NCBI GenBank assembly: GCA_022496185.1
Contig: WTXG01000092.1
Location: forward strand, 78,052 to 142,051
From: Multifurca ochricompacta
Taxonomy: Eukaryota; Basidiomycota; Agaricomycetes; Russulales; Russulaceae
DNA length: 64,000 nucleotides
Direction of reading: 5' to 3'
Part shown: in pieces, positions 12,845-64,000 of the stretch
How positions within the stretch are numbered: position 1 is the first letter of the stretch
How the letters are laid out: the number at the start of each line of letters is the position of its first letter
Notes under the pieces: model-generated
What the model was told of the DNA's origin: nothing
The model's database searches: none
What the model saw: the letters and a program-made list of their open reading frames with translations, nothing else
Translations under genes and position numbers: made by a program

Positions 12845-13117
12845 GTTCCATGACTCAGGGTGATGGAATTGAATGATATTTTTCACCAGGGGATTGGGTA
12901 GTCCCTGGGAGAAGAGGTCAAGTGTGGCCTCTTTGTTCACATTGTACCCCACTCACTTAGCCAGATTGTGAAACTTGGCTACATATCCATCCAAGTTGCC
13001 TCTTTCCATTTTCAGAGTTTTTAACTCTCTGGCAGCCTTCTGTTTGGCCTGCCCATCTGTGAAGGTGTCTTTAAATCTTTGCGCCACTACATCCCACAGA
13101 TCTTCATCTGTGGTTCT
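12845..13117 (-). pseudogene. G1 gypsy gag, middle piece
   Basis: Minus-strand reading includes DVVAQRFKDTFTDGQAKQKA and YVAKFHNLAK, matching G3 Gag at about residues 255-310. It lies between B1 (left) and the TRIM (right), and the duplicated flank at the TRIM is GTTCT (13113-13117). Confidence 0.88.
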
Positions 13118-13196
13118 TGTTGACACAAGTGTAGTGCTGCACAATGCAACTCTCACATGACCTTGGTATATAAGGTTATGCTCCATGTAGAACCCA

Positions 13197-13271
13197 GGCC
13201 ATGTAGCTCAGTGGTTAGAGCGCTGGACCCGGATTGTCCAGAGGTCTTGGGTTCAATCCCCAACGTGGCCA
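13197..13271 (+). tRNA. tRNA-like gene in the TRIM 5' LTR
   Basis: 75 nt that fold as a cloverleaf. Acceptor arm is GGCCATG/CGTGGCC (one T-G pair). The D-arm GCTC..GAGC contains a box A-like TAGCTCAGTGG. Anticodon stem is TGGAC/GTCCA. T-arm is TTGGG/CCCAA with loop TTCAATC (box B GGTTCAATCCC). A T4 run (CCTTTTC) follows six bases later, the usual Pol III stop. The seven-base anticodon loop CCGGATT has C instead of the near-universal U at position 33, so decoding function is doubtful. A nominal anticodon GGA would be serine, but there is no long variable arm. It could serve as a Pol III promoter rather than a tRNA. Confidence 0.75.
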
Positions 13272-13325
13272 TTCCTTTTCTAGAGCGTGGGTTAGGGTCT
13301 TACTTAAGGTCCCTTTGCCGGAGTG

Positions 13326-13835
13326 TGTTGAACACAGGACGTGTTCAGTGATGCTTCAGGCATCAGGAGATTAGATTAGCTACTTTGTGGACTAGATTAG
13401 ATATCAGAGTTTTGGACTATTTACCATATCATTATTACTTTCTTTCTCACTTTCCGCAGTAGCTGACTGATGTACCTTAGTAATGATGCACAAGCATGTG
13501 ATTCCTTACTGGCCAATGGCCTTATTCCCTCTTGTTTATTATTTGGACTTTGTCTGGCACTTGAGGACTTATTCCCAGTGCACAGACCATCCCTTAGGAA
13601 GTATATAAGGGTGTCTGTTTCGTCTCTTACACTTCAGAGTTTTCTTCATCTCTGAAGTGTAAGTCCTCCCTACTCTACTACCTTACCTATAACTAACTGT
13701 CTCTTGTAGATAACTTGTTTCTAGGTGTGTAGTATAGTAATAGAGAGTTTTCTTCATCTCTGAAGTATAACTTGTTTCTAGCCTCACCCGCTAACCCTTC
13801 ACAGTCAGTATGCTGCACACCTTGCCTGTTTCACA
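13326..13835 (+). repeat. Solo copia LTR (family C) inside the TRIM 5' LTR
   Basis: 510 bp, TGTTGAACACAGG...CCTGTTTCACA, perfect duplication GAGTG (13321-13325 and 13836-13840). Same family as the C3 3' LTR and the LTR at 34011-35434. It has the TATA (AGTATATAAGG, near 13600) and the double stem module. Confidence 0.92.
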
Positions 13836-13854
13836 GAGTGCATGTGGGCCAACA

Positions 13855-13945
13855 TGGTAGCAGCATGTCATCTACTCTGTGCCTTTGACCCCCTAGAAAG
13901 GAAATTGGGAGAGTTTGCATGCACGGTTGCATGTGCGTGGGGGTG
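13855..13945 (+). other. TRIM internal domain with PBS and PPT
   Basis: 91 bp. The first ten bases, TGGTAGCAGC, touch the LTR and are complementary to the expected 3' end of a fungal initiator tRNA-Met. The last ten, CGTGGGGGTG, form a short polypurine tract before the 3' LTR. There is no frame longer than a few codons. Confidence 0.8.
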
Positions 13946-14167
13946 TGTTGACACAAGTGTAGTGCCGCACAATGCAACTCTCACATGACCTTGGTATATA
14001 AGGTTATGCTCCATGTAGAACCCAGGCCGTGTAGCTCAGTGGTTAGAGCACCGGACCCGGATTGTCCAGAGGTCTTGGGTTCAATCCCCAACGTGGCCAT
14101 TCCTTTTCTAGAGCATGGGTTAGGGTCTTACTTAAGGTCCCTTTGCCAGAGTGTGTGTGGGCCAACA
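13946..14167 (+). repeat. 3' LTR of the TRIM
   Basis: 222 bp, same length as the 5' LTR. The few differences are mainly CpG-type changes (for example GTGCCGCAC here against GTGCTGCAC in the other). It contains the second tRNA-like unit. Confidence 0.9.
14025..14099 (+). tRNA. tRNA-like gene in the TRIM 3' LTR
   Basis: Same 75-nt cloverleaf as at 13197. Acceptor GGCCGTG/CGTGGCC, boxes A and B unchanged, T4 stop after it. The closing pair of the anticodon stem is lost (CGGAC/GTCCA), leaving four pairs. The two copies differ at four sites, three of them transitions of the C/T or G/A kind. Confidence 0.72.
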
Positions 14168-14345
14168 GTTCTGGTTCCAGCTGTAACCCTATTGTTCAAC
14201 CACTTGATTTGTTCCATGGTCCAATCATCAATGGCATCTCCTCTAATTAATGAAAGGAAGGTGTTGGTGTGTTGGAAGGGGTTAACGATTTGTGGGACAT
14301 TGTGGTTGAAGTTTTTAAACATCTCAAAATCAAGCATAAACTTCT
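14168..14345 (-). pseudogene. G1 gypsy gag, capsid-region piece
   Basis: Minus-strand reading MLDFEMFKNFNHNVPQIVNP and FLSLIRGDAIDDWTMEQIKW matches G3 Gag just after its poly-Pro region. It is bounded by the TRIM and by solo LTR D. The flank CTTCT (14341-14345) is duplicated at 15462-15466. Confidence 0.88.
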
Positions 14346-18506: not shown

Positions 18507-19015
18507 TGTCAAACAATGATGCTGCTGGTTATACTAACTGTGGTTAGTAGCGGTTAGGCTAGAAAAGACAAGTGCTTCAGAGGTTAGAAGAACTCTGATA
18601 TTACTACACTACTGACCTAGAAAGACAAGTCTATATACAAGGTTAGTCTAGAGGTAGTAGAGAGTAAAGTAGAAGGAACTTACGCTTCAGAGGTTAGAAG
18701 AACTCTGAAGTGTAAGAGACAAAACAGACACCCTTATATACCCATGGGGGCCAGGGGAAATGGTCTGTGCGCACTGGGAATAAGTCCACAAGTGCCGGAC
18801 AATAAACAGAGAGGGATAAAGGCCATTGGCCAAAGAGATATCACATGCTTACTGCGCATTACTAAGTCCATCACTAATCAGCTGAGTAAGGTGAGAAAGA
18901 AATGTAATAAAGATAACATAAAAAGTCCGATACTCCGGAATCTAATCTAATCTAATCTACAGCTGAAGCGAACCTTAGATGCCTGAAGCATCTCCAGACA
19001 CGTCCTGTGTCAACA
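18507..19015 (-). repeat. 3' LTR of copia C1 (LTR family A)
   Basis: 509 bp. Identical to 24539-25049 apart from AGCGGTTAGG for AGCGGGTTAGG and AGAAAGAC for AGAAAAGAC, by eye comparison. Two CTTCAGAG stems lie at about 18572 and 18686. Confidence 0.93.
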
Positions 19016-19279
19016 TCCCTCCATGGTGAAGGCATCGATCATTAAGATGGAATGAGTTAAATGAGCACACTGCTGTTCACAATTGAACGAACATATCGCC
19101 AGAGATCCAACTTCTCTAACTCTCAAGTGTAGAGAGAGGACCATGGTGTTCAGAGGCATATTGAGTTAGATTCTCTTATGCAAACTGAAACCACACCTCT
19201 TGCATCACTCTCGAAGTCGAGAATTTGCTCATGGTGGGAAAGTGAAACTGGTATACAAAGTCTCCAGATTCCAGCTCTC

Positions 19280-22200
19280 TCATTCCAGCACTAGTCCAAA
19301 TCCAGTTACCATGTGATCAAAAGATGATCTAGGCAGAGACTTTGTAAGGCCATCTGCTAGCATCTCTCCAGTGGGAGTTCGCACCAAGTCTATCTGGTGT
19401 GATTCTACATACTCCCTAATGGCATGGTACTTTATCGGTATGTGCTTTGATCGCCTTCCTGTGACAGGGTTTAATGCAAGGTCTACTGCACCCTTATTGT
19501 CACAGTGCAGTTGTATGGGTGAACTAACTTCATATCCCAATTCCTGCATAAATGTCCTATACCACGCAGCCTGATTTGAAGCCTCAGCAAGGCTCATATA
19601 CTCGGCTTCTGTGGTGGACTGTGCTACTGTCTTTTGCTTCCTGGAACACCAGCTAATGGCTCCATTAGCAAGGAAAAAGACATAGCCTGAGGTGGAGTGG
19701 CGGTCCTCTTGATCTCCCCATGAGGAATCCGCAAAGCCATGAAGGCCAACTTCACCATTCCCTCCAGAATAGCGAACTTGTAGTCTTTTGTAGCATTTAA
19801 ATAGCTAAGACATATTTGCTAGTCGCATGTGCTGCTGGGAAGGGTTGGAAGCAAATTGGCTAAGGCGTGCAACAGCGAAACTAATGTCAGGTCTGCTTCC
19901 AATCTGCACCCAAAGCAGAGACCCCATTAACTGCTGATACCTCTTAATATCAGAGGTAGATGCTTGGTCTTCAAACTTGACCAAATGAACATCCACGCCA
20001 GAGGGTAGAGGAGTATATACTGGGTTGGAATCCCCCATTCCAAACCTCTCAACTATGGAGGATACATAGGCTGTCTGGTCGATATCCAGTGTCTTGTTAG
20101 GACGGTCCCTGGTGATGTTAACTCCAAGGTAGGACTGGATTTCGCCAAGATCGGTCATCTCATATCGGCTAGATAGAGAGTCCTTCAGCCATTGAATCTT
20201 CTTAGTGGAGGACCCAAGTATAGTGATGTCATCAACATATAAAATGACGAAAAGTGAACCATCCCCCTCTTGGTGATGATACACATATACTCCTGCATCA
20301 GAGTACGTCCGAGTAAAGCTCAGTTCATTGAGAACTGCATGGAATTGTAAGTTCCATGCTTGGGAAGCTTGTTTGAGGCCATACAGAGCTTTCTGTAGCC
20401 TACAAACTTTGGACTCTTGTCCAGCAACGACAAAACCAACAGGTTGCTCCATGTAAATCTCCTCATCCAGATCGCCATGTAGGAATGCCGATTTGACATC
20501 CATCTGGTGGATTTCCCAATCCTCAAGCGCGGCCAACGCTAATAATAGTCGAAGAGACTCAAATCTGGCGACTGGGGAGAAGGTTTCATTGAAGTCCACC
20601 CCCTCTACTTGGGTGAACCCTTTTGCTACAAGCCTAGCACGAAAGCGTCCATCTGCTTTCAATTTAAAGACCCACTTGGACTTTACAGCCTTTCTACCTT
20701 CAGGAAGGTCTTCAAGGCGCCACACTTTAAGTTTTTCTAAGGCATCAATTTCATATTGACATGCCTCAAGCCAATCACTGGCATTATCAGACTCCATTGC
20801 TTCTTTAAATGTAAGAGGATCCCTATAAGGCAATCCTGCAGCATTAAGTAGATCCATCTGACCAAGTCTGGAAGAACCTTGCACAAACTCTGCATTATCC
20901 TCGTTGTAGAAGCGAGGATTCAGACGACGGTTGCGATTGGGACGTGCAGTATCCAAGTCCAAATCTTCTTGGATTGCCCTATCTCGTCGTTCAGAGCGTG
21001 GACTCGTCCTCTGAAAATTGGGTTGAGGAATTCTGTCTGCAATCCTTTGTGATTTTCTGATTGCCTTGGTTCTTTTGGGAGGGGAGGATGGTTCCATGAT
21101 TTGAGATGGAGGGGTCTGATATATAGTCTGAGGGTGTGTGGTGTCTACATTACGTGTGGGTGTGGTAGGCTGTTGTGGTAATTGTGGAGGTACGACGTCC
21201 TCCTGTTCCTCTTCTAGGCCTTCCTCATCTTGAGGAGCCTCAGGAACATGCGTAGCAGTTGCTGGTGGTGGCTGGACTGGGCCACCAGGTAAAGTAAAGG
21301 AGCCACCTTCAGTAGGTTGCTCTATTGATTTGTCTGCTCTGTTGTCCTTATCAGAGCGGGATGGGAAGGATCTCTCATCAAATGTAACATCTCGTGAAAA
21401 GATGAGAGACCGGGTACGACTATCCCAAAGTGTATAGCCTTTAGAAGTAGGCTCATACCTGACAAAGACGGCTTCCCTGGCTTTGGGATCTAGTTTATGC
21501 CGCTTGCCCTCTGGAACATGGTAATAGGCTTTGCAACCAAAGACCTTAAAATACGAGACATCTGGTTTGTTCCCAACCAGAAGCTCAAGTGGAGTTTTCC
21601 ACTTGTTAGAACGGATGGGAGTTCTATTATATATATGACATGCTGTCTCAACAGCACACTCCCAAAAACCAAGAGATAGGCCAGCATCGTGCAGCATGCT
21701 AGTGCCTTTTTCCATAATGGTTCTATTAAATCTCTCGGCCCTTCCATTCTGTTGTGGGCTATACGGCATCATAAGTTTATGCTCTATGCCATAATCTTCA
21801 AGCGTTGCCTTCAGCGCCTTGTTCACATACTCGCCACCACGATCTGTATGAAGACACTTGATTTTATGATTGAATTTATTTTCAAGTAGTGTCTTCAGTT
21901 TATTAAAAACTGGTGTGAACAGATCTTTTGACTTCATTGGAATGATTAAAGCGTATCTGCTAAAGTCGTCCAAGAAGGTGGCAAAGTAAAGATTCCCTTG
22001 TATTGAACTGCACTGCAAGGGACCTACAAGATCACTATGAAGGATCTCAAGGGGGGCTGATGCACGCTTTGAAGATGGGGGAAATGGAAGACGATGGGAC
22101 TTGCCCATTTCACAGCCATAACATGGCTTGTCTTCCACTTGGCTATTATTTATTTTGAGGCCTTTTACCGCCTCAGGAGCATATCTCTTTAGGGCTTCTT

Positions 22201-22612
22201 TAGACATATGGCCCATTCTTTGATGCCAGATTTCTAGTGAGGCAGATGCAGTTGTATGGATACTATTTAGGACGTGTTTGCCTAGTACCCAATACAATTT
22301 GCCAAACTTCCATGCTTCCGCTATAATGTTATCGCCATATTTTATTGTTGCCTTCTTATTATCAAAGAACACAGTTGCCCCTTTTTCTACTAGGGCACTG
22401 GCGGAGATTATTTTATGTCCTCCAGGCATATGGAGTACATTGCTCAATTCCAAGTCGTAACCTTGATCAGTCCTGATGATCACGGTGCCAACTCCATTTG
22501 TTTTGACTATGGAGTTGTCGCCTAGTGATACTTCATGGGTTCTGTCGACTTCATATGTATCGAAGTCTTCAAGGTTGGGACTGAAATGAGCCGTTGCTCC
22601 ACTATCAAGCAT
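19280..22612 (-). pseudogene. C1 copia Pol (protease, integrase, RT, RNase H)
   Basis: Open from 22612 to 19805 (935 codons), then shifted, with the last 105 codons at 19597-19280. Order: aspartic protease at the very start (LDSGATAHFSP), GAG-pre-integrase zinc region (HQRMGHMS..., CYGCEMGKSH), integrase core with D (HSDLVGP), D (LHTDRGGEY) and E (NGRAERFNR), a Pro/Ser-rich linker, reverse transcriptase with VKSAFLHGDLDEEIYMEQP and YVDD, then RNase H (ADSSWGDQED expected in the shifted zone). Against C2, three single bases are missing at about 19740-19830 and cause the break. It reads in the same frame as gag above it, and the two are separated by one TGA. Makes the replication enzymes of C1. 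If the gaps are sequence errors, this Pol is intact. Confidence 0.93.
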
Positions 22613-22663
22613 CCAATAATCTGAGTTGATATCCAGATTATAGGTGTGAACATAAAGGCGAAT

Positions 22664-23599
22664 TCAAGGTGCTTCATGCACCTCCTCTATTTTGCCACTA
22701 CCATTAACTACAGTGGCTATAGTATTTACATGTTGGGCCTCAGCCCTCTTCTTGTTCCCTGCCTTGCCCTTTTTGGCATTCTCCAGGTCCTTTTTCTTCT
22801 TTGCGCAAGCATTGGACTTGTGTCCAGGCTTTTGACAATAGAAGCAGACCACCCCTTGTGAACCAGGGGCAGCAGCGGGAAGTGGTGATAAATTTGTAGG
22901 TTTTTTAGTTTTGACAGGTGCAGCCTTAGATAGGACTGCACTACCACTTCCCGAGGGACCTGCCAGGCGACTTTCCTCATTTAGGAACCTCTGCACAAGG
23001 TCCTGAGGAGAGAGCCGCTCTGGATCGCCAGAGGCCAGTATAGAGCCGGCAATGGCACTGTAGGATTCAGGGAGAGCTTTCAGCAATATGAAGCTCATCT
23101 GGAGGTCATTGACCTCCATCCCATTCTCCCTAAGGGTACTCCTGGCATCCAGGACCTTTTGTAATTGGGTCCTGAATGTCTGTCCTTCATCAAGACGGAA
23201 GGACACCAGGGCAAGCCACAAGTTATATGTGGCCATGCTACCTACAGAGCCATAAAGCCGCTCCAACTTATTATACTTCTCACTAAGAGAAGGATAATTG
23301 GCATCAGAGGCTACTTGGGAGTAGACCTCTTGGGTGACGTTAAGAAAGAGGAGCCCAATTAGCATTTCCTCTTCTCCCATCCATTCCCTGAGGATGGGAT
23401 CAATGACTTCCTTCTGCATTTTCTCCTTTTCCTCCTTGTCCTCTGGGAGGAGGGGCATATCAGGGTAAGGCGTAAGAATGTGCCTCCTGAGCCCATTCAT
23501 CCTCAAAAGGGCATTGAAGTTGGCAGACCAGACCTGCCAGTTGGAGCCATCAAGGCGCTCCATCTTGGAGGAGGGAGGGAAGACAATTGAAGACGGCAT
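22664..23599 (-). CDS. C1 copia Gag
   Basis: 311 residues. The front part has the copia-type capsid pattern (LDGSNWQVWSANFNALLRMN at about 15-34, then helices). A Ser/Gly/Lys linker leads to one CCHC knuckle, CFYCQKPGHKSNAC, at 252-265 and a Lys-rich tail. The frame runs on into Pol: after the TGA at 22666-22664 the next 17 codons lead without shift to the protease. In copia elements gag and pol normally form one polyprotein, so this TGA is best read as a decayed CGA or, less likely, a readthrough stop. Forms the virus-like particle and binds element RNA. Confidence 0.9.
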   Translation of the reverse strand: MPSSIVFPPSSKMERLDGSNWQVWSANFNALLRMNGLRRHILTPYPDMPLLPEDKEEKEKMQKEVIDPILREWMGEEEMLIGLLFLNVTQEVYSQVASDANYPSLSEKYNKLERLYGSVGSMATYNLWLALVSFRLDEGQTFRTQLQKVLDARSTLRENGMEVNDLQMSFILLKALPESYSAIAGSILASGDPERLSPQDLVQRFLNEESRLAGPSGSGSAVLSKAAPVKTKKPTNLSPLPAAAPGSQGVVCFYCQKPGHKSNACAKKKKDLENAKKGKAGNKKRAEAQHVNTIATVVNGSGKIEEVHEAP

Positions 23600-24538
23600 T
23601 TTGAGATGTTATAAGTGTTCCTGGTTCCAAGGAGCAGTTAGAACCAGTGCCCAGGTCTCGCTTAAGAGTGCCACCCCATACTGTGGCACTATGCTTCAGA
23701 ACCTAAGAAGGTCCTGCCTTTGTTGTGCGACTTTCTAGGTATAGTAAAGCTGTCTAGCGCAATCCTGTAACTAGACATAAGCTCTGGTAGACTGGCCAGA
23801 GTGTCTAGTGTAACCAGGATTGGGAGTCATGTCATGAAGGAGCCAACCGCAAGTTCCATTAGAGACAAAGGGTGTATAGCCCTTCCTCTAATGCTGGTGG
23901 TGGAGTTCATGATTAAGCCCTAGATGATTGGGGCCATGACTGAGTAGATGACAAGTCTGTCTCTGGTAGGGCGTGGTTACCCTACAAAGGCAATGGATAC
24001 TTATGCCCAGAGATGAAGACTATATCTACTATGTATAGACTATAGTAGTGCAGCCTACTTGTATCGAGCCCAAGCGTCATGGGAGTGACTACCCATGCCT
24101 TGTTCTAGACCCTAAACTCCACATGCGGGTCGCTAAACCCGGCTTACAGACAGAGCCAAGCATTGACTGGACTTAAAGCCACAAGCTTCTGGCTATAGGC
24201 CTACTAAGACTATCTATGGGACGAAGACCCAGCTACAACTATGAAGGTTACTAATACCTAGTGCGCACTCAAGGAGCTTAAGATGTTTCACCCGCTTAGG
24301 GTCCCTCATCATCTTTTGCAAGAACCCCGAAGGGCTAGCCAAACAGTTCAGGATGAGCAGTAAACTGCGTCATCCTGTGGGGTGTTAAGGTGCACAGACA
24401 GTAAATAGGAAAGCTCACTGGAAGAAGCTGGTGGGAAAGACTTTGAAGCTTTTGTGAGCTTGGAGTGCAAGAGCAAGTTGGGCTGTTTATGAACAAAGGG
24501 AATTTAAACAGTCAGTATGAGCGGCAGGGCCCATAACC
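23600..24538 (-). other. Copia untranslated leader (C1)
   Basis: About 940 bp from the 5' LTR to the gag ATG, starting with the putative primer site. It is collinear with 10449-11384 in C2. It has several short palindromes and no long frame. A spliced or structured leader is possible, but no splice pair could be fixed. Confidence 0.7.
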
Positions 24539-25049
24539 TGTCAAACAATGATGCTGCTGGTTATACTAACTGTGGTTAGTAGCGGGTTAGGCTAGAAAAG
24601 ACAAGTGCTTCAGAGGTTAGAAGAACTCTGATATTACTACACTACTGACCTAGAAAAGACAAGTCTATATACAAGGTTAGTCTAGAGGTAGTAGAGAGTA
24701 AAGTAGAAGGAACTTACGCTTCAGAGGTTAGAAGAACTCTGAAGTGTAAGAGACAAAACAGACACCCTTATATACCCATGGGGGCCAGGGGAAATGGTCT
24801 GTGCGCACTGGGAATAAGTCCACAAGTGCCGGACAATAAACAGAGAGGGATAAAGGCCATTGGCCAAAGAGATATCACATGCTTACTGCGCATTACTAAG
24901 TCCATCACTAATCAGCTGAGTAAGGTGAGAAAGAAATGTAATAAAGATAACATAAAAAGTCCGATACTCCGGAATCTAATCTAATCTAATCTACAGCTGA
25001 AGCGAACCTTAGATGCCTGAAGCATCTCCAGACACGTCCTGTGTCAACA
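24539..25049 (-). repeat. 5' LTR of copia C1 (LTR family A)
   Basis: 511 bp, promoter LTR of the element: on the minus strand TGTTGACACAGG...TGTTTGACA. TATA is GTATATAAGGG near 24773. Stem 1 follows (about 24716-24742) and stem 2 is at about 24606-24630. Confidence 0.93.
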
Positions 25050-25071: not shown

Positions 25072-26582
25072 GTGGCTTCCAGCCGCAGTCAGACCCTCTT
25101 CCGGGAAGAACTCATCGAACACAGAGACGAGAATAATCTTTCACAGCAAGTACTTGGCTCTGCCACCTGGAAAGACTTTGAGTCCGAGTTTGGATATTAC
25201 GTCTATCACAACGGAAGATACCAACCGGTAGAATATGACGACAAAAAGAGAGTTTGGTATCGCATCCGATACTCGGACAGCCAACACTCTTGGGTCACTA
25301 CAGGACCTGCCCCACCCAAATTTGGACTAGGCCCATGGAGAGAGAATCCCCTGGCCATTGTCACGGACTCCGAACCAGAGGAGTATGTAGAAGAACCCAG
25401 TGAAGAAGCACCGGCATTAGCAGCAACTACGTTTCCAGTTGCACCCACAGTTGTCACGTTCAGAGCACCTGCTTTGACAACTCCCCAGATATCGACACAA
25501 ACCACCGACACTATTACCCCATCCCGTCCACCCATGTCTACCATTGCCGCCCAACTTCCGGACCCTGCTCCACCAGCCCCCGTGGCACCACCTCCAAACA
25601 TCCCCCCCCTTCTGGACATCTGTCAGGAGTGTTACCCCAAACGTTCACCGGGGACCGCTCACAGAGTAAAAAGTTCATGTTGGAGTTCACAACCTTCAAG
25701 AACTTCAATCATGATGTTCCACAGATTGTCAATCCCTTCCAATGTGCCAATCTGTTTCTCTCCCTGATCCGAGGGGATGCAGTGGATGACTGGACGATGG
25801 AACAGTTGGAATGGCTGAACGAGCAGGTTGAGAGTGGGCGTCGAACCACAAGCAAAGGTCTTTGGGAGACCATAGCCGAGAGGTTCAAGGACGCCTTCAC
25901 AGATGGGCAGGCCAAACAGAAAGCAGCCCGAGAATTAAAGTCCCTCAGAATGGAAAAGGGAGAACTTGACGCATATGTGGCCAAGTTCAGAAGTCTAGCC
26001 AACAGAGCCGGCTATGATACAGACGAGGAGGCCACACTGGACCTCTTTTCGCAAGGACTACCCAACCTGCTAGTCAAAAACATCATACAGTTTCACCACC
26101 CCCATGATTGGGACACTTGGGTCGATGCTGCACGCCGGCAGCAGCAGGACTATCTGGACTTCCAGACACGATTTGGAGTCGATACTAAAAAGGGAAAGAC
26201 CCGAGACCAGTGGAAGGCCACCTTCGGAGTAAAACCTGCCCAGCATACCCAGCGGGATCCAAATGCCATGGATACCTCTGCAGATCAAGCTCGAGCTCAG
26301 GCAGCACTCATGGAGGATGAGCGGCAGGCATTAATGAAGGAAGGGCGATGCTTTCGCTGCAGAGCATTAGGACACATGTCTCGAGACTGTCCCAAGAAGG
26401 GGGTGCGCGTCGCCATGGCAACCGTCACATCAGAAAGCCCCGCTCAGAATAACCCAACCACTGTGGACAAAAGATCGAAAGAGGAGAAAGCCCAGGATAT
26501 ATGGGCTAATATGATGAAAGAGAGTGAGGAAGTATGCGCCATTTTGGTAGAGAAGGCGTTTGCGAAAAAGGATTTTTGTTAG
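25072..26582 (+). pseudogene. G3 gypsy Gag
   Basis: About 500 codons. The N-terminal part (MASSRSQTLFREELIEH...) reads in one frame to the poly-C run at 25602-25609, after which the rest continues one frame over (MLPQTFTGDRSQSKKF...). One extra C restores the order seen in the old copy G1 (PPPSGHLLGVLP), so the run has probably lost a base. Pro/Thr-rich linker at 110-190, capsid region at about 195-400 (FMLEFTTFKNFNHDVPQIVN, WTMEQLEWLNEQ), then one CCHC knuckle CFRCRALGHMSRDC (about 26350-26391). It ends at TAG 26580-26582, inside the start of the protease frame. Forms the particle shell. Confidence 0.9.
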
Positions 26583-37337: not shown

Positions 37338-40300
37338 CACGAGCCCCAATGATAGGCTGCAGCAGTACTACATGCATGATCTTGTGAAGATAGCCAATTG
37401 GCCGCTGATCAGCGTTTCGGGACAATGACACAGTTCAGAATTCAATTTTAACATGGCCCCTCCCTAAGACATTACATAACTAACAAACAAAACACTGATA
37501 CATTGGGGATCCAAACAAAAAAGATACCATTTCTCCCCTACTCGCCATCAGTAAGGTGTACCCCGCTCCGTATAGCAACTGAGAACCCTCCATTAGTTCA
37601 TATTAGCACAATGGGAGCGTACATACACTCATGGAGCAATCCTGGCATGGGTTACACTTTACTTCGATAATAGTTGCGCAATTTCCTCTTTTCCATTTGC
37701 TCTTGCTACTTGGAGCGCGGTCTGGTCGCGGTTATCTTGTATAGATATATTTGCACCACGGTCTAAGAGCAGCCGTACAAATGCTAGATCGTATTTCCCG
37801 AGGGATGCATGGTGAAGTAGAGTCTCTCCAAACCTATTCTGGTGATTCACATTGGCGCCGCGCTCGACCAGTAGTTTTACAACTTCCAAATGGCCCTTCC
37901 GCAATGCCACACCGATTGGATTGTCTTGATCCGTAATCCATGTATTTACGGTTGCGTTCCCTTGAAGGAGGAGCGCTACGATCTTCTGATGACCATGTTC
38001 TGACGCCGAATATAATGCGTACCGGCCGTCTGGATACTGGGTGGATAAATATGAATTTCCACCATGCCGCAGTAGTGTCTGCAAAACATCGTAATGTCCT
38101 TTTGCACATGCTGCGATCATCGGGGTCCCATAGTGACCAGAAATGTCACCAAAATCGTAATGTCTTCTGGACAACAACCATTGAACTATGCCAAGACAGT
38201 CGAACTGAGAGGCGTAGTATAAGGGGGTCGCTTGTGGCGGTGATGGAGTCTCTGACGTCATGGATTCTCCCGACTTTTCATCCACGTCGTATATCCAAAT
38301 CCACGTAGCAAAGTGCGGTTTACTTGGGTCAAAGAGGCACTTCAGTGCCTCTTGTATATACTCATCGGCAGGCCTACTTGGGGAATGAATGAGCACGGAC
38401 TGGGCGGCATAGACGGCAAGAGGGTAGTCGGCGATGCTTTTTTTGTTGATCTGTCCGTCTAGCTGGAGTAGAAGGCCCAGGCAGACCTCCGCGACTTTAA
38501 TATTGGCGGTATTGAGGGAAAGGTGAGGGTGAGGGACACCCCCCGTTGCTGCCGCGAGGCGGCTCGATAATAAAAACTGCTTCACAGAGAAGTGGGAAAA
38601 TTGAACAACTGCGGAGCCATCTGTGTTGACAATCACAATCAAACTAGAGCAAGTGGACAGCAAGGCATCTTCTGGATCTTCAGGGCGCCATCCCGCCTCA
38701 AACACAGGTAGTTGATTTGGCCGGAAATCCCACGTGAGGAACTCTGCAAGTTCCGAAGCGCGAAGTGGGCGAGAAGCCACGGCCAAGAACTGAAAGAGAT
38801 GGAGGGCACGCGTCCATCTTTTCTTGTCGATATCCTGCAATATGCGTTCGTATGCTTCTTTCAAGGTCTCGGGGAATTCGTTTAAAGTGTGTCGAATACT
38901 TTCACGAAGACATCGGCGCAGCTGGTCCAATTGGCAGAACACCCATCGAAATCTGTACCAACACGTGAATAAGTCTCGCGTAGCGCAGAGAAAGGCGACA
39001 CCATACATTCCCCCAGCTTCTTCTGACAGCTTATTGATGACAAAATCCTTATCTTCCTTTCTCCACTTTTTCATTTTCAGATCTGAGCCAACGAAAAAGT
39101 TAATGTAGTCATTGATATCCTCGACATGTCCCATCTCATCATGAAGGGACACTATCTGAGATGCCAAGGGCTGAAGAACTTCTCGGATGTCCGTCTCAGC
39201 ACAGCTGGAGACGCAAATACGCAGATTAGAACCGCGTAAGTTGACAAGCCATTCCACAAGCTCCAGGATACTTTCTCTTTTGGATGGCGTGCCAGAGCTT
39301 TTAGGGGATTCGTCTAGACCATCCAAGATGATATAGATTGGGCCTTGTTCAGGAAGCGCGAGCATATCCTTCAAGCATTCTAGGAGTGCGTTAATACGTG
39401 GTTGCCTCGAGCCCGCGGCATGTGTCGAATATAGGCGAGAAAGAATATCGGAACAAAGATCGGACTGCTCGCATAGTTGGACAAGAAGAGAAGAGAGTAG
39501 GCCGCGGGAGTCTTGCTTCGCCCTGTCCCTGAAATCGAAGTAAAAGTACGCCATGGAGGCTAACCCAGCTTCGCGCATTGCTGTGATGTCTTCAATTATG
39601 GTTGAGCTATTCGACAATGACGTCAGTGAGCTGACGCAAGAAACGCTGACGGAGTTTGCATACCAAAGGACGCTCTTTCCTGATCCCGCTATGAAACAGA
39701 GGCGATTTTTATGTGGAAAGGAAAAGAAGAACAGGAAATACGTACGCTTGCCATGAATCCACAACAGGGAACCCGTCTTTTTCCATTCAGAGAAGGTGTG
39801 ACCTTGAATGAACCACGCTGCCGTTCCGGGGTGATGAGCCTTGCGCGCCATGTCGTGGCTTTCAGACGGATCCGTGGGAGATAGCCAGACTTGTACGTCC
39901 TTCACCAGCTGGTCACCTGCGTATGAGGTAGTCTCAGTTTAAGAATGGCGCTCTCAAGTGGATAACGAACGCTTTGACTTGTCTATTATGTCAGTCGCCA
40001 GTCTCTGTACGATAACTGGTACCCATGGTCGGTTATCATGACCCATGTCTAAAGCGAAACATACCGAGAGCATATTTGATATCATCTGTTGACGCTTTTC
40101 CATCTAAATAAGATGCACCAGTTTAGTATAGCGTAGGAAACCGATTGAACAAGTATCGATTACCGTCCATAAGTGTCTTCATGTTCTGGACAAGACCGTA
40201 AATAATCTCTAGGGCCTGACCCGCGGCTGTCCGAGACTCATTCTGGGAGGTATTTCCCAGCCTCTGCAGCACCGCTTCGACATCATTATCTCCCAAGAGC

Positions 40301-41734: not shown

Positions 41735-44700
41735 AGCTCAGGTCCTTCATAGGAGTGGGAGCTTTCTATTACCTAACGCGCGTGGGTATATTAGGATGTG
41801 GATATTAGGATGGAACGATAACAGGGCAGGCAGGCCCTTTGCCTTCCCTCAGTTTTAGAGATGACAGATCAACCACATTCTGCGACTTTATCCCCCTCAT
41901 CTGAACTCAGGTCACTTTTCGACACCACCTTCAGCGATTATGAGAAGCGGACAGGGATCAATTTAGTTGAACACCAGTTCTTCACCATCCTAAACAGTTG
42001 TGACACTGCCGACTCTATCGTTGCCACATTTCGAAACCTAATTCAAGCGTTGAATATACTTCGTGGCGAGGATGCCACAACAATTGTGGAGTGCCTTGAG
42101 TGGATCGTCTACCTTTTGCACCCATTGTCCGCCAACGGAACTCTCGGCGGCGTAGGTGCTCAACTGGTACGCTACATTGCCGTTTTCACTTTCTTCAAAC
42201 TGTGTCGTAACGGTTATCTTGCAGTCTTTCTCACTTGATAAAGCAATTTTCGCTGGACTTGGTGTCCTTCTCATAGTACGAATATTATTAGATTCCTTCA
42301 TGAAATTCTCGTGACGTCCATCGCCACAGGCCGTCGATGGCTCTCAAGTTAGCATGAACTACGACATGCTCATCGATCTTTTCAGATCTCTCGAAGCCTT
42401 TCTCAAGCGCCTCAATACTCATATCAAGGCCTCACAAACAACTACGACGACGGTGCCAGTAGTGAAGATCTTGCTTCAACTTCTCTCTACTCTCGGCCTT
42501 GCAACACAACAAGTTAACCAAGGGAGGCTGGGTAGGTCCTTCACATTGATAGATGTGCTGCTCTGGCTCAAGGTCACGCAGAGAGGCTCGGAGAAATGCT
42601 CTTAGGAGATAATGATGTCGAAGCGGTGCTGCAGAGGCCGGGCAATATCTCCCAGAATGAGTCTCGGACAGCCGCGGGTCAGGCCCTAGAGATTATTTAC
42701 GGTCTTGTCCAGAACATGAAGACACTTATGGAAGGTACTCAATACTTGTTCAATTGGTTTCCCATGCTGTACTAAACTGGTGTATCTTATTTAGATGGCA
42801 AAGCGTCAACAGATGATATCAAATATGCTCTCGGTATGTTTCGCTTTAGACATGGGTCATGATAACCGACCATGGGTACCAGTTATCGTACAGAGACTGG
42901 CGACTGACATAATAGACAAGTCAAAGCGTTAGTTATCCCCTTGAGAGCGCCATTCTTAAACTGAGACTACCTCATACGCAGGTGACCAGCTGGTGAAGGA
43001 CGTACAAGTCTGGCTATCTCCCACGGATCCGTCTGAAAGCCACAACATAGCGCGCAAGGCTCATCACCTCGGAACGGCAGCGTGGTTCATTCAAGGTCAC
43101 ACCTTCTCTGAATGGAAAAAGACGGGTTCCCTGTTGTGGATTCATGGCAAGCGTACGTATTTTCTGCTCTTCATTTCCTTGCCACCTACAAATCGCCCCT
43201 CTGTTCTGTAGCGGGATCAGGAAAGAGCGTCCTTTGGTACGCACGCTCCGTCAGCTTCTCTTGTGTCAGCGTACTGACGTCATTGTCGAATAGCTCAACC
43301 ATCATTCAAGAAATCGCAAAAATGCGCGAAGCCGGGTTAGCCTCCATGGCGTACTTTTACTTCGATTTCAGGGACAGGGCGAAGCAAGACTCCCGTGGCC
43401 TACTTTCTTCTCTTCTTGTCCAACTATGCAAGCAGTCTGATCTTTGTTTCGACATTCTTTCTCGCCTGTATTCGACACATGAGGGAGGCTCTGTACATCC
43501 TAGTGATGAAGCACTCCTAGAATGCTTGAAGGATATGCTCGCGCCTCCTGAACAAGGCCCAATCTATATCATCTTGGATGGTCTAGACGAATCCCCTAAA
43601 AGCTCTGGCACGCCATCCAAAAGAGAAAGTATCCTGGAGCTTGTGGAATGGCTTGTCAACTTACGCGGTTCTAATCTGCGTATATGCGTCTCTAGCTGTG
43701 CCGAGACGGACATCCGAGAGGTTCTCCAACCCTTGGCATCCCAGATAGTGTCCCTTCATGATGAGATGGGACATGTCGAGGATATCAATGACTACATTAA
43801 CTTTTTCGTTGGCTCAGATCTGAAAATGAAAAAGTGGAGAAAGGAAGATAAGGATTTTGTCATCAATAAGCTGTCAGAAGAAGCTGGGGGAATGTATGGT
43901 GTCGCCTTTCTCTGCGCCATTCGAAATTATTCACGTATTGGTACAGATTTCGATGGGTGTTCTGCCAGTTGGACCAGCTGCGCCGATGTCTTCGTGAAAG
44001 TATTCGACACACTTTAAACGAATTCCCCGAGACCTTGAAAGAAGCATACGAACGCATATTGCAGGATATCGACAAGAAAAGATGGACGCGTGCCCTCCAT
44101 CTCTTTCAGTTCTTGGCCGTGGCTTCTCGCCCACTTCGCGCTTCGGAACTTGCAGAGTTCCTCACGTGGGATTTCCGGCCAAATCAATTACCCGTGTTTG
44201 AGGCGGGTTGGCGCCCTGAAGATCCAGAAGATGCCTTGCTGTCCACTTGCTCTAGTTTGATTGTGATTGTCAACATGGACGGCTCCCCAGTCGTTCAATT
44301 TTCCCACTTCTCTGTGAAGCAGTTTTTATTATCGAGCCGCCTCGCGGCAGCAACGGGGGGTGTCCCTCACCCTCACCTTTCCCTGAATGGCGCCAATATT
44401 ACAGTCGCACAGGTCTGCCTGGGCCTTCTACTCCAGCTAGACGGAAAGGTTAACAAAAAAAGCATCGCCGACTACCCTCTTGCCGTCTATGCCGCCCAGT
44501 CCGTGCTCATTCATTCTCCAAGTAGGCCTGCCGATGAGTATATACAAGAGGCACTGAAGTGCCTCTTTGACCCAAGTAAACCGCACTTTGCTACGTGGGT
44601 TTGGATATACAATGTGGATGAAAAGTCGGGAGAATCCATGACGTCAGAGACTCCATCACCGCCACGAGCGACCCCCTTATACTACGCCTCTCAGTTTAAC

Positions 44701-45584
44701 CGTCTTGGCATAGTTCAATGGTTGTTGTCCAAGTCACACTCTAGTTTCAATAACGTCTCTGGTCACTATGGGACCCCGATGATCGCGGCATCTGCAAAAG
44801 GACATTACGATGTTTTGCAGACACTACTGGGGCATGGTGGAAAGTCATATTTATCCACCCAGTGTCCAGACGGCCGGTCCGCATTATATTCGGCATCAGA
44901 AAATGGTCATCAGAAGATTGTGGCGCTACTCCTTAAAGAAAACGCAAACGTAAATACCTGGTTTATGGACCAAGATAATCCACTCGGTGTGGCATTGCGG
45001 AACGGCCATTCGGAAGTTGTAAAATTACTGGTCGAGCGCGGCGCCAATGTGAATCACCAGAATAGGTTTGGAGAGACTCTACTTCACCATGCATCCCTCG
45101 GGAAATACGATCTAGCATTTGCGCAGCTGCTCTTAAACCGTGGTGCCAAAAAATCTATACAAGATAACCGCGACCAGACCGCGCTCCAAGTAGCAAGAGC
45201 AAATGGACAAGAAGAAATTGCGCAACTATTATCGAAATAGAGTGTAACCCATGCCAGGATTGCTCCATGAGTGTACGTACGCTCCCATTTGGCTAATATG
45301 AACTAATGGAGGGTTCTCAGTTGCTATACGGAGCAGGGTACACCTTACTGATGGCGAGTAGGGGAGAAATGGTATCTTTTTTGTTTGGATCCCCAATGTA
45401 TCAGTGTTTTGTTTTGTTAGTTATGTTATGTCTTAGGGAGGGGCCGTGTTAAAATTGAATTCTGAACTGCGTCATTGTCGCGAAACGCTGTATTTAAAAA
45501 AAAATCTGATCAGCGGCCAGTTGGCTATCTTCACAAGATCATGAATGTAGTACTGCCGCAAGCCTAATGTTGGGGCTCGAGAGA
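41735..45584 (+). repeat. Right arm of the inverted duplication
   Basis: Counterpart of 37338-41190. It includes NLR2 and about 340 bp beyond its stop, ending near GGGGCTCGAG (45580). Confidence 0.88.
41861..45240 (+). CDS. NLR2: Goodbye-NACHT-ankyrin receptor, intact
   Basis: Nine exons, all with GT-AG introns: 41861-42166, 42225-42275, 42330-42531, 42582-42734, 42795-42833, 42982-43152, 43212-43236, 43294-43893 and 43947-45240, giving 946 residues without a break. Residues 1-190: Goodbye-like N-terminal domain (LFDTTFSDYEKRTGINLVEH, then AIFAGLGVLLI). About 250-310: linker typical of this family (VWLSPTDP, HHLGTAAWFIQGHTFSEWK). NACHT from about 310: HGKPGSGKSVLC, MAYFYFDFRD, Walker B IILDGLDE, and VSSCAETDIR, where relatives have SRPETDI. 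Then FRWVFCQLDQLRRC and about 200 residues of winged-helix/superhelical region. The last 200 residues hold about six ankyrin repeats. A STAND NTPase. In fungi such genes act in non-self recognition and programmed death, but its ligand is unknown. Confidence 0.9.
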
Positions 45585-56638: not shown

Positions 56639-59600
56639 ATGTCACAGAGCTCACCAATGACCACTACACCCACTGCTCATTTTCAATCTATTTTCGATCA
56701 TGCATTGAAATCGTACAAGAATCAGACAAAGAGTGATCTTATCACACATCCGCTAGCTGCCAAATTGCAAACATGCGACTCTACTACCGCCGTCATGGCC
56801 GTGCTTCAGACCCAGGTCCAAGAGTTCAATCAATCCCGAGACAGTGACGAAAAGTGGAACAAATGGCTCAGCCCAACCATAAATGTACTCTATGCATTTT
56901 CTGCGACCCTCGGAGAGAGTGTTGGCCTAGTAAGTCTCAAGACGATATATACCTTCTAACCTTCGTGCTCAACTGTCTGCCCCGCAGGTATTCTCGCCCG
57001 CAAAAGTGATATTTTCTGGGATCGGCGTCCTCCTCTTGGTGAGCATCTCATGCCCTTTATATTATTCTGCATTCTGAAATCTGCTAGGCGGCAAAAGATG
57101 TGAACGGCAGCCAAGAAGCTCTCAGTAACCTGTTCGAGCGTGTAGAGAACTTTTTCAAACGCCTGGAGACTTATACGGAAGTACCTCCGACTGCAGCGAT
57201 GACAGATATAATCGTGAAGATCATGGTCGAAGTGCTTGGTATCCTTGCTCTGGCAACTAAAGAGATCAAGCAAGGATTAGCAAGTGAGTTTGTTTTCAGT
57301 GAGATATGACCTTTGACAGATTTTTGTTCAGAAAAATATTTGAAGAAATTGGCGGGAAGGACGGATATTGAAGATGCGCTTGGAAGGCTGGACAAATTGA
57401 CACACGACGAGGCTTGATGGCGACGGCGCAAGTACTGAAGATTTCGCACAACATTGAAAGCCAGGTGACGAGGGTTGATGGCAAGGTGACGGCAGTCGAT
57501 AGCAAGGTAAAGTTGATTATAGAAGGTAAGCAGAACATCTAAGCATATGGCAGATATTTTTTAACGGTGTGTGTGAATAGACGGCAAGGATGCAAAAACG
57601 ACTGCAAATGAAGCCAGAATAGTTATGCAACAGACTGCCAACGCCGTTGATCAAGTAAAGCGTTCGTATTTCCATTTGTCTCTCCGCTTTTTGTTGAAGG
57701 CGCTCAAGCTCATGCTCAGGAAGCCAAATGCGACAAGATCTTCGAAGATGGCTCTCTCCACCTGACCCATCTATTAATCACAACATCGCCCGCGGTACTC
57801 ATCATAGTGGAACAGCGTCTTGGTTCTTCGAAGGCAGTACATTCAACGAGTGGAAGTCATCTGAATCACTTTTATGGGTCCACGGAAAACGTACGTTCCC
57901 TTGAACGTTTCAGACTCGACTAGCCTTGATGGCCATCACATCTTTCTAGCGGGCTCGGGAAAGAGCATCCTCTGGTTCGTCAATCCGTGATTATCTTTTG
58001 TTTGAAGGAGCTTATTGTCGCCGATCAGTTCCACCATCGTCCAGGATATTGAAGTTATGTGCGAGGCAGGATTGGCAAATATGGCATATTTCTATTTCGA
58101 CTTTAGAGACACCGCCAAGCAAAGCCGCCACAATCTTCTCCTCTCCCTTCTAATTCAACTTTCTGCTCGTTCCGATCCTCGTTGCGACATTCTCTTCAGC
58201 ACCTTTTCCACACACGATAGTGGTGCGCGACAGCCCAGCGATGACATTTTGTTCCAGTGTCTGAAAGGGATGGTGTCACTGCCAAATGAAAACCCAGTCT
58301 ACATTGTTGTGGATGCGCTTGATGAATGTCCGAACACTTCTGGAATGCCAACGCCAAGAGAACAGGTCCTTGACCTCCTGAATGAACTCATTGGCCTTTC
58401 CCTCCCAAATCTTCACATATGTGTCACTAGTCGCCCAGAGACCGACATTAGATCTGCTCTTGAACCTCTGACATCTCTCCGTGTCTCACTTCACGATCAA
58501 ATTGGACAAAAGAAGGATATTATCAACTATGTTAGCTCTGTTGTCCGCTCAGACACAAAAATGCGAAGATGGCGAGAGGAAGATAAAAAACTCGTTGTCG
58601 AGACCCTAGCTGAGAGAGCCGACGGAATGTAAGTCAATAATTTACGCTCGTTATGCTTACTTAGAGATTGAAACAGGTTTCGATGGGTGTTCTGTCAGTT
58701 GGAAATTCTGCGACACTGTCTTCCACCAAGTGTTCGGCGTATACTCGAGGAATTACCAGAAACGCTAGATGAAACATATGAAAGAATATTGAATGATATC
58801 AACAAATCGAACAAGGATCACGCTCATCGTCTCTTACAATGTCTCACTGTCGCCTCCCGGCCGCTACATGTGAGCGAACTTGCGGAGGTCCTTGCAATTG
58901 ACTTTGGCGATGGGAATGGAGGAATTCCAAAGTTAAATCCGGATTGGCGATGGGAGGATCAAGAACAAGCAGTACTTTCCACGTGCTCCAGTTTGATAAC
59001 CGTTGAAGATGGCTCACAAGTGGTGCACTTTTCGCACTTTTCGGTCAAGGAATTCTTGACGTCGAGTCGGCTCGCGAGGTCGAGTAGAGACGCCTCGCGG
59101 TATCATATTCTCCTTGAGCCAGCTCACACCATCCTCGCGCAAGCTTGTTTAGGTGTTCTACTGCGATTGAACGATCGGGTTGAAACGGACGACATGGGGA
59201 GTAGCATTTCGTTGGCAGTATATGCTGCTCGACACTGGATTGATCATGCCCGGTTTGGGAATGTGTTGTCACGAATCAGTGAAGGGATTGACGATCTTTT
59301 TGACATGGATAAGCCACATCTTTCTGCATGGCTCCGGTTGCACAACATAGACCAAACCTGGACCCATTTCTTCCCTCCGGTGGACCTGTCCGAACCTGGA
59401 ATAGTTCCCTTATACTTTTCGGCACTGTATGGATTCCGTGACTTGTCAGAGCGCCTCATACTCAAGCACCTGGAGCACGTGAATGCTAGGTGTGGCCATC
59501 ACAGGACTCCGTTGGTAGCAGCCATCCAATGGCAACACATCGAAATTGCAGAATTACTGTATCAATACGGTGCTGACATTGATATTCGAGGCGTCGAAAA

Positions 59601-60075
59601 CTTCACTCTTCTACATGCAGCATCGTTAGATGGGCGTTTAGACACTGTCCGGTGGCTACTCGACCATGGAATGGATGTGAACACCCTTGATGACAAGGAC
59701 TACACACCACTGCATGTGGCGGTAAACAGTGGAGAGCTCGTCATTGTTCAGATGTTACTGGAGTGCAATGCACATATCGATGCCCGAAATGACGATGGCT
59801 TGACCCCATTGCATGGGGCATCAAATAATAATTACCCGAACATGGTACGGCTTTTATTGGAGCGCGGCGCAGACGTGAATGCCCAGGATAGGAAACTTGA
59901 AACCCCGTTACATCTCGCAGCAAGCTTTGGGGCGCTCGAGGTTGTACGCGTGCTGCTCGAGCACGGTGCGAAAGCAGACCTGAAAGACAGCGAAGATGAG
60001 ACCCCAATCCAGGTGGCGTTGGCAGTTGGACACCGCGAGACCGCGGACTTACTATCACACCATGGCGTCAATTGA
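56639..60075 (+). pseudogene. NLR3: Goodbye-NACHT-ankyrin receptor
   Basis: Clear canonical Goodbye domain: exon 1 56639-56929 (AHFQSIFDHALKSYKNQTKS, LYAFSATLGESVGL), exon 2 about 56988-57038 (VFSPAKVIFSGIGVLLL), exon 3 57088-57283 (NLFERVENFFKRLETYTEVP). In the next exon one base seems missing near 57415 (DEA then MATAQVLKISHNIE one frame over). The following exons give QDLRRWLSPPDPSINHNIA, SWFFEGSTFNEWKSSESLLW and P-loop HGKPGSGKSILC across two introns (ending about 57950 and 58019). NACHT: MAYFYFDFRDTAKQS, Walker B VDALDE and the standard VTSRPETDI. Intron 58630-58677, then FRWVFCQLEILRHC and about seven regular ankyrin repeats (59400-60070) ending DLLSHHGVN. If the gap near 57415 is an error, the gene is whole. 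A STAND receptor of the same class as NLR2 but only distantly alike. Confidence 0.87.
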
Positions 60076-62464: not shown

Positions 62465-64000
62465 TTACGTCGTCAACTGCAAGTCATCGTGGAGAGTCAC
62501 CAGTTGCGGAGCTCCCTCTGCACCATGTTCCAACAATAGTTCTACTACTTCATCGTGTCCTTCTCTGGATGCCACCTGGAAAGCCGTCTCTCCCCGTTTA
62601 TTCTGCGCATTTATATCCGCACCATGCTCTAGTAGTCCCCGTATAATATCTTGATTTTTATTTCGTGACGCTAGGTGTAGGAGAGTCTGGCCGTCTCTAT
62701 TGCGAGCGTTGACATCTGCGCCATGCTCGAGTAGAAGTCTAATGATTTCTTGATCTCCTTTCTTCAGTGCTTGACCAAATGGAGTCTCGACGTTAGCATT
62801 CCAGGCATTTGCGTCTGCTCCATGATCCAGTAGTAGCCGTACGATGTCCTTGTATCCTTCTTCTGATGCCGACAACAATGGTGTCCTACCTGTGGAACTC
62901 CTTGCATTCACATCCGCGCCAGATTCGATGAGCATCCGTGAAATTTCCAAATATCCTGTGTTCGCTGCCTCATGCAACGGAGTCCACGCCGAACTACCCT
63001 GCCCGTTGACATCTGCGCCATACTTCAGCAGCACCTTCGCCACATTGACGGAACCCCGCATGGACGCAACATATAATGGGAGCGAATTAAAGTCTCCGTC
63101 ATTCCGCAAATTCACATCCTGTGATCGCATGGTGATTAGCCATTCCGAAACGCCCCCAAGATCGCTTTCAGCGGCATAGAATAAAGCTGTTCCTTTCGGC
63201 CGAGGGGCAGCCCCTTCCAGTGTCGCACTCTCGTTTCTTTCCATACTTTTGACCCAAATCCACAATGCAAAGTGTGGTCCATCCGGGTCGAACAGCCGTT
63301 TCATCACATTATCTGTACGTGATGAAACATTCCCAAATTTCGCATGGTCCACCCAATGCTTGGCAGCATAACCAGCAAGTGGAAAGTGGTTAATAGGGTG
63401 TTTGTTGATGTGATCGCCAAGCTGCAGTAAAACCGCGAGGCAGGCTTGTGTGACAATCAGATGCGCGGATTCAAGGGGAATGTAGTAGCGTGAGATACGT
63501 CCTTTTGCTAATCGCTCCGACGTCAAGAACTCTTTGACAGAGAAGTGAGAAAATTGCACAACCTGAGAACCATCCGCGTTGATGACGGCGAGTAAACTGG
63601 AGCAGGTAGAGAGCACAGCATCCCTGCATTTTCAGGCCGCCAATCTGCCTCGAATATCGGAATTTCTTCGTCGTTGAAATCAAACGCGAGGAACTCTGCG
63701 AGCTCTTCGACACGGAGTGGCCGAGAAGCAACTGTGACGCATTGCAACAGACGATGAGCATATGCCCAATTTTCGTCGTCAATATCTTGTAAAGTCCGTT
63801 CGTATGTCTCATCCAGCGTCCCAGGTAACTCTTCGAGTGCACGCCGAATACGTCCTGGAAGACACCGACGCAATTTGTCCAGTTGGCAATACACCCATCG
63901 GAACCTGAACCATCACGTGAATAGGTTGTGGAAAACATCACGTCAAACAATGCCTCACATTCCATCAGCTTCTTCACACAACTTATTGATCACCAGTTCT
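62465..64000 (-). pseudogene. NLR4: NACHT-ankyrin receptor, 3' part
   Basis: Runs off the right edge, where the end of the NACHT domain (ELVINKLCEEADGM) is still visible. Intron about 63959-63902 (GTGAGG...GGTTCAG) is at the same position as in NLR2 and NLR3. Then RWVYCQLDKLRRCLPGRIRR and SRPLRVEELAEFLAFDFND. Near 63622 one base is missing (WRPENA then MLSTCSSL in the next frame). The downstream part VVQFSHFSVKEFLT leads to eight or so regular ankyrin repeats (63150-62490; for example GHDEVVELLLEHGAE), stop at 62465. Same class as NLR3, to which it is closer than to NLR1/2. The missing base may be an error. Confidence 0.85.

Follow-up and report, generated by a model that had tools for sequence, protein, structure and literature searches.

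The element at positions 13118–14167 of the window, a 64,000-nucleotide stretch of Multifurca ochricompacta DNA, is almost certainly a Helenus-type TRIM, i.e., a non-autonomous LTR retrotransposon, and each of its LTRs carries a tRNA-like unit. Based on a comparison of three related families in the same genome, this unit probably serves as a Pol III promoter; the between-family test favors promoter function over RNA structure.

The layout of the window element is given in Table 1. The two LTRs are near-identical direct repeats 828 bases apart that align over 211 bp at 97%, of which the final 3 bp are taken as a chance extension into a nested LTR. The first-pass annotation had described two 222-bp LTRs around a 91-bp core; the 3′ LTR and the core are confirmed, but the 5′ LTR is not contiguous and consists of two pieces. 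Without the nested LTR and the 5 bp duplicated by its insertion, the window copy is 535 bp long and gene-less, and the 5-bp duplication GTTCT at its ends is exact, as had been claimed. Likewise, a tRNA-like unit with box A, box B, and TTTT was found in each LTR, called by ARAGORN and, well above the cut-off of 29 bits, by Rfam (RF00005), and the motifs TAGCT...TGG and GGTTC are present in each LTR. The purine tract that had been noticed is there, but it is short.

Table 1. Features of the window element and of the solo LTR nested in it
Feature	Positions	Strand	Basis or remark
Left TSD, GTTCT	13113–13117	.	Read from sequence
5′ LTR, piece 1 (U3, R, most of U5; 208 bp)	13118–13325	+	Aligned to 3′ LTR
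TATATAA, 5′ LTR	13167–13173	+	Begins 30 nt upstream of tRNA-like unit
tRNA-like unit, 5′ LTR, 75 nt	13197–13271	+	ARAGORN; Rfam RF00005, 61.8 bits
Box A, 5′ LTR unit	13204–13214	+	
Box B, 5′ LTR unit	13250–13260	+	
TTTT, presumed weak Pol III terminator, 5′ LTR	13276–13279	+	Sequence
Nested solo LTR, Copia-type by resemblance, 510 bp	13326–13835	+	TSD GAGTG, 13321–13325 and 13836–13840
5′ LTR, piece 2 (final 14 bp of U5)	13841–13854	+	Sequence, alignment to 3′ LTR
Primer-binding site TGGTAGCAGCAT	13855–13866	+	11/12 to iMet 3′ end including CCA
Core, 91 bp	13855–13945	+	Sequence, core search
Short purine tract, GGGGG then TG	13939–13945	+	Other A copies have CG instead of TG
3′ LTR, 222 bp, TGTTG...CAACA	13946–14167	+	Sequence, genome search
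TATATAA, 3′ LTR	13995–14001	+	Sequence
tRNA-like unit, 3′ LTR, 75 nt	14025–14099	+	ARAGORN; Rfam RF00005, 51.8 bits
TTTT, presumed weak Pol III terminator, 3′ LTR	14104–14107	+	Sequence
Right TSD, GTTCT	14168–14172	.	Read from sequence

We read the insertion that splits the 5′ LTR as a solo LTR because it has its own GAGTG duplication and resembles Copia LTRs, matching those of a Copia element at 18531–25049 at 74% and other fragments in the window at 84–96%. It also contains perfect 14-bp inverted arms (13626–13639 and 13650–13663) and an internal 27-bp direct repeat. Because the window TRIM copy was later split in this way, it is probably dead. The copy itself is inserted into Gypsy-type gag sequence: when the host flanks are rejoined, a 121-codon open minus-strand reading spans the insertion site, and part of the gag ORF at 25404–26582 in the window (Pfam Retrotrans_gag plus zinc knuckle) matches the insertion-free host sequence across the site over 410 bp at 71%. 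Among the neighbors, the Copia element at 18531–25049 lies on the minus strand, has LTRs without any difference along 395 bp and another 72 bp, encodes integrase and reverse transcriptase domains in a 951-aa pol reading, and is probably recent. Similar NPHP3_N/ankyrin-repeat ORFs in both orientations (37659–39938, 43112–45240, 58006–60075, and 62465–63631) suggest a duplicated gene cluster; the domain check covered the ORF at 37659–39938, where NACHT itself was under its cut-off.

The 222-bp LTR has at least 52 matches in the 53.8-Mb assembly (40 of 293 candidates scored), which is well beyond chance, and a genome search with the core gave 19 matches, each adjoining A or B LTRs. Altogether, at least three related families (A, B, and C) are present as LTR-core-LTR units and solo LTRs. 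Family A is that of the window element. Family B is about 81% identical to A, and 47 matches to its LTR are at 95–100%. Family C has a 223-bp LTR with 42 matches, of which 21 span more than 160 bp with at least 97% identity, and a 97-bp core in both full copies seen; it has mainly the tRNA-like part in common with A (84% over 89 bp), together with the TGTTG...CAACA ends and a short U5 block. Diverged C-like copies are also found in the genome. We examined 15 full LTR-core-LTR elements, plus many solo LTRs with TSDs; full copies are 523–543 bp long (14 copies). After 11 of the 54 element rows examined had been excluded for broken or aberrant ends, perfect 5-bp TSDs were present in 41 of the 43 intact-end copies (the exceptions being C246 and C78), or in 40 of 42 independent ones because two A copies with identical flanks represent one insertion counted twice. 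These two are solo LTRs (C88:46873 and C335:122007) with the same 60 bp on either side, and the pair is a segmental duplication or an uncollapsed assembly haplotype. The first-pass annotation had proposed such a search with the LTR and the core, and its TRIM reading holds up, as the conserved LTR-core-LTR unit with 5-bp TSDs recurs in three families and is not limited to this locus.

The two LTRs of an element differ by 1–11 bases in seven A elements and by 0–2 bases in five of six B elements, with 11 differences in the sixth; they are identical in three of the six B elements and in one of two C elements, while the 60 ungapped differences of the second C pair come from an indel shift (98.7% by BLAST). 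Because the copies of B and C are nearly identical, these families are young. One A copy is aberrant (C122:35007–35602): its two A LTRs flank the core with U5 facing outward on either side, and one part of the core is present twice and inverted; the 5 bases outside each end are CACAT. Judged from this arrangement, it looks like a palindromic cDNA integrated via two U5 ends.

The initiator tRNA-Met (iMet) gene of this genome was located (C24) by a pattern of the T-loop plus CTGCTA, which gave 19 matches, one of them bearing the iMet T-loop. The gene starts with AGCAGCATGGCGCAG, has a short intron after CCATAA, and ends in GTGCTGCTA; ARAGORN as run misses this intron-bearing gene. Because of this gene end, the 3′ end of iMet plus CCA pairs with TGGTAGCAGCAC. 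Among 19 LTR-end-plus-PBS sites (10 A, 7 B, and 2 C), exactly this sequence, 12/12 to iMet, is present in 15 (8 A and 7 B), i.e., in 15 of the 17 A and B sites. The two remaining A sites, those of the window copy and of C122, have TGGTAGCAGCAT, with T at the last base, and both C sites have TGGTAGCAGGAC with one change; the match is 11/12 in all four. Thus, what the first-pass annotation recognized as a match to initiator tRNA-Met corresponds to the 3′ end of the iMet gene in this very genome, at 11/12 in the window copy. A Copia element of the window has the primer site GGTTATGGGCCCTG, the complement of the spliced iMet anticodon arm; the primer site of the Copia element at 18531–25049 is complementary to this spliced arm, and both Copia-type window elements examined use the iMet anticodon arm, unlike the TRIM PBS. 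Priming by the iMet anticodon arm is described as dominant in fungal Helenus (Kojima 2024, Biology 13:119, PMC10886601). In a search for an autonomous partner by the exact LTR-end-plus-PBS pattern, which would overlook elements whose LTR end differs or whose PBS is shifted, all 19 matches were A, B, or C copies, and the core search of the genome similarly gave A, B, and C copies only.

Among the real tRNAs scored, tRNA-Ile(AAT) has the body closest to the tRNA-like unit (72–77% for four units and 74% for the window 5′ unit), and the best non-Ile tRNA is Thr (68–71%); because 63 of 1851 candidates were scored, a parent other than tRNA-Ile is possible. Compared with tRNA-Ile(AAT), the anticodon arm is replaced. 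No other part of the unit diverges as much between families (0.33 for A-C), and the anticodon calls scatter across Ser, Ala, Arg, Trp, and Thr on a short-arm body (GGA/CCG/CCA/AGA in A, GGC/AGC in B, AGA/GGA in C, and AGC/AGT/AGA/none in diverged copies). The Ser label means little because the three real tRNA-Ser seen are 82, 93, and 102 nt long, any introns included. A C at position 33, which had been taken to suggest that the tRNA part is a promoter or RNA-binding handle and has no part in decoding, is found in most A and B units but is not fixed, as some A copies and family C have T. The calls in older C-like copies (Ala AGC, Thr AGT, and Ser AGA) coincide with some of the rust-fungus calls given by Kojima (PMC10886601), and this may mean that fungal Helenus elements share an ancestor. 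At 149 places in the genome there is a match, with at most one mismatch, to a 20-base pattern from the T-arm that is characteristic of the units, and only three of the matches listed are genuine tRNA-Ile genes. With so few genuine genes among the matches listed, automatic tRNA counts in such fungi would be inflated.

To compare regions, we calculated mean pairwise differences among 63 LTRs. These comprised 35 A LTRs, including both LTRs of C122 and the twice-present C88/C335 insertion but not the window 5′ LTR because it is split; 17 B LTRs, including the outlier C125 (92% to the B query); and 11 C LTRs. Between A and C, the differences are 0.61 in U3, 0.14 in the tRNA-like unit, and 0.62 in U5; between A and B, they are 0.28, 0.065, and 0.26, respectively. 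Within A, the corresponding values are 0.020, 0.040, and 0.052, arguing that the unit is not a mutational cold spot. The contrast between fixed and variable differences is clear for A-C (p=0.0005) and suggestive for A-B (p=0.08) and B-C (p=0.06), these p values being descriptive because the copies are related. Of the variable pair types within A, 20 of 30 are CpG transitions, and CpG decay fits as the source of the differences between copies. If active lineages depend on the tRNA-like block, its conservation from family to family is what one would predict. Its similarity could also stem from transfer of the unit among families; the shared ends and the shared U5 block make common descent the likelier cause. 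Among 21 chosen units, 16 of the 22 box A/B columns are invariant compared with 23 of 53 elsewhere (p=0.025), and the mean differences are 0.057 in box A and 0.025 in box B compared with 0.265 in the anticodon arm and 0.200 in the acceptor. This conservation of boxes A and B, while U3 and U5 diverge, supports the earlier suggestion that a tRNA-derived promoter is at work.

The first-pass annotation had also noted a TATA box upstream of the unit. TATATAA is indeed present, and in all 35 A LTRs, but it is confined to this family: it is changed in 17 of 17 B LTRs, and no TATA box lies upstream of the unit in any of the 11 C LTRs. The B and C LTRs rule out the TATA box as a general feature of these elements. 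Neither is it routine in tRNA genes here: a TATAWA-type box between −40 and −16 occurs in only 4 of the 29 real tRNA genes sampled. In contrast, each of the 63 LTRs has a single T-run of at least 4, namely the TTTT after the unit, a terminator weaker than most of those of the real tRNA genes sampled; the single TTTT is likewise present in 9 of 11 diverged stretches, and the remaining two, a near-identical pair, have none. Among the 29 real tRNA genes, 27 have a T-run of at least 5 within 30 nt; TTTT is the first T-run in seven, six of which have another run behind it, leaving a single TTTT and nothing further in one (L045). Two genes, L100 and L101, had been dropped from this sample (AT fractions 0.78 and 0.75, T-runs of 4, probably organellar); with both included, the count is 27 of 31. 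Elsewhere in the element, TTTT is not significantly rarer than expected (2 observed compared with 1.7–2.2 in shuffles for A and B and 0.6–0.8 for C). In yeast, weaker tracts give more read-through, and effective termination in vivo is reported to need >6U (PMC4937561). We infer that the TTTT would be leaky and permit full-length RNA.

Because the TATA box is confined to A and covariation is not above shuffles, we favor the view that the tRNA-like unit acts as a Pol III promoter and consider this likely. According to this model, boxes A and B of the 5′ LTR unit would form an internal promoter, and Pol III would at times pass the TTTT in the 5′ LTR and stop at that in the 3′ LTR. As judged from the layout, the resulting RNA would be about 400 nt long and carry the tRNA-like unit at both ends as the R region. 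The 3′ end of iMet, which matches the PBS, would prime minus-strand synthesis, and the reverse transcriptase and integrase of a Copia-type element, the partner suggested by Kojima (PMC10886601), may act in trans. The DNA would then be inserted with the 5-bp TSDs that are observed. RNase P and RNase Z might excise a well-folded tRNA-like unit from such an RNA. More tentatively, we speculate that the weak TTTT acts as a switch that decides whether a short tRNA-like RNA or the full genomic RNA is made, that the whole unit is the R region, that the anticodon arm decays to avoid excision by tRNA processing, and that the TATA box of A is a recent add-on; as a package, this has perhaps some chance of being correct but is doubtful. 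The TTTT is equally weak in the 3′ LTR, which counts against the proposed life cycle. If true, the switch would spell out how tRNA-bearing TRIMs complete a life cycle with Pol III, and the idea of a weak terminator suggests, in a simple and testable way, how full-length RNA can arise even though the internal Pol III promoter has a terminator behind it.

Other functions of the LTR can be proposed. The TATA box of family A would suit Pol II as well, and the element could be a conventional Pol II TRIM in which TATATAA drives transcription from the tRNA-like unit, itself a passenger. The position of TATATAA 30–24 nt ahead of the unit throughout family A agrees with this, as does the rarity of such boxes in the real tRNA genes sampled; however, B and C lack an intact box though both are young, conservation sits in boxes A and B, and the TTTT directly behind the unit is kept in every LTR. 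We therefore regard a Pol II TRIM as unlikely. Somewhat less likely still is that the unit persists for the sake of its RNA structure, with a part in packaging, processing, or the binding of proteins. A cloverleaf can be drawn for the units, with 93.2% of cells pairing compared with 36–44% when the drawing is slid, and a cloverleaf is also the fold obtained for the window 5′ unit (z −2.56). Nevertheless, neither pairing nor covariation exceeds that in column shuffles (93.2% compared with 92.9% paired; covariation 0.150 compared with 0.147), and the anticodon stem is the weakest helix, with 83.7% of cells paired and one pair broken in 7 of 18. Of four units folded, the cloverleaf was the minimum-energy structure only for the window 5′ unit, a weak point against structure because a genuine tRNA-Ile folded alongside was also without cloverleaf. 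Accordingly, covariation lends no support to the earlier idea of an RNA-binding handle.

Ordinary tRNA genes carried by chance in LTR elements and still decoding would account for Rfam and ARAGORN calls above cut-off, but they fit poorly with anticodons that scatter on a short-arm body (unlike the longer real tRNA-Ser) and with an anticodon arm that is the most diverged part between families, making this reading very improbable. That a lone tRNA or SINE insertion was duplicated by chance is refuted by the 15 full LTR-core-LTR elements and the many TSD-flanked solo LTRs, and we give it practically no weight.

Finally, tRNA-bearing TRIMs, those of fungi included, have already been described as Helenus (PMC10886601). 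As reported there, Helenus (TRIMp3) comprises TRIMs of 311–1263 bp with tRNA-like LTR sequence in fungi, animals, and plants; the fungal ones have 5-bp TSDs and iMet or other primers, with Copia as the likely partner by inference, and their Agaricomycetes hosts include Agaricus bisporus, Coprinopsis cinerea, and Amylostereum areolatum (PMC10886601). The M. ochricompacta element is like Helenus in TRIM length, the absence of genes, and the box A/B-containing tRNA-like unit in both LTRs; in its 5-bp TSDs, iMet primer, and the PBS and short PPT at the ends of the internal part; in the multiple families per genome, the inflated tRNA counts, and the Agaricomycetes host; and in anticodons at odds with the tRNA type (PMC10886601). 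Unlike in most fungal Helenus, the PBS corresponds to the iMet 3′ end, which is reported for only several fungal families (PMC10886601). In the text of that paper, the genus and family of the present host are not mentioned, and “Russul” does not occur, though Amylostereum is named; “TATA” is absent, and “terminator” is used once, for Cassandra (PMC10886601). In the literature searched from 2023 on, we found no further paper on Helenus TRIM retrotransposons, and three other papers that mention TRIMp3 are unrelated to judge from their titles. Among the papers listed in a search for M. ochricompacta, none contains the species name.

The parallel to plant Cassandra drawn in the first-pass annotation is borne out in that both have an LTR with a promoter derived from a Pol III gene and a methionine primer site; Cassandra differs in its 5S rRNA promoter and plant host, and for it, transcription from the 5S part has reportedly been demonstrated (PMC10853983, PMC10886601). 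Nemertean Ajax has the same TRIMp3 layout and 5-bp TSD but is 5S-derived, resides in an animal, and uses a tRNA-Leu primer (PMC10886601). For the trait of Cassandra and Ajax, i.e., 5S rRNA-derived LTR sequence, a search of the window with Rfam at gathering thresholds gave only RF00005 tRNA. SINEs derived from tRNAs are mobilized by non-LTR elements and have neither LTRs nor a PBS. A tRNA-derived Pol III head is what the element described here has in common with them (PMC10886601). Possible additions of the present analysis to the description of Helenus are the primer tRNA gene read in the genome that harbors the element, the short terminator, and the absence of both covariation and a conserved TATA box, as well as the host: with M. 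ochricompacta, a member of the Russulaceae harboring young families is added to the hosts of Helenus.
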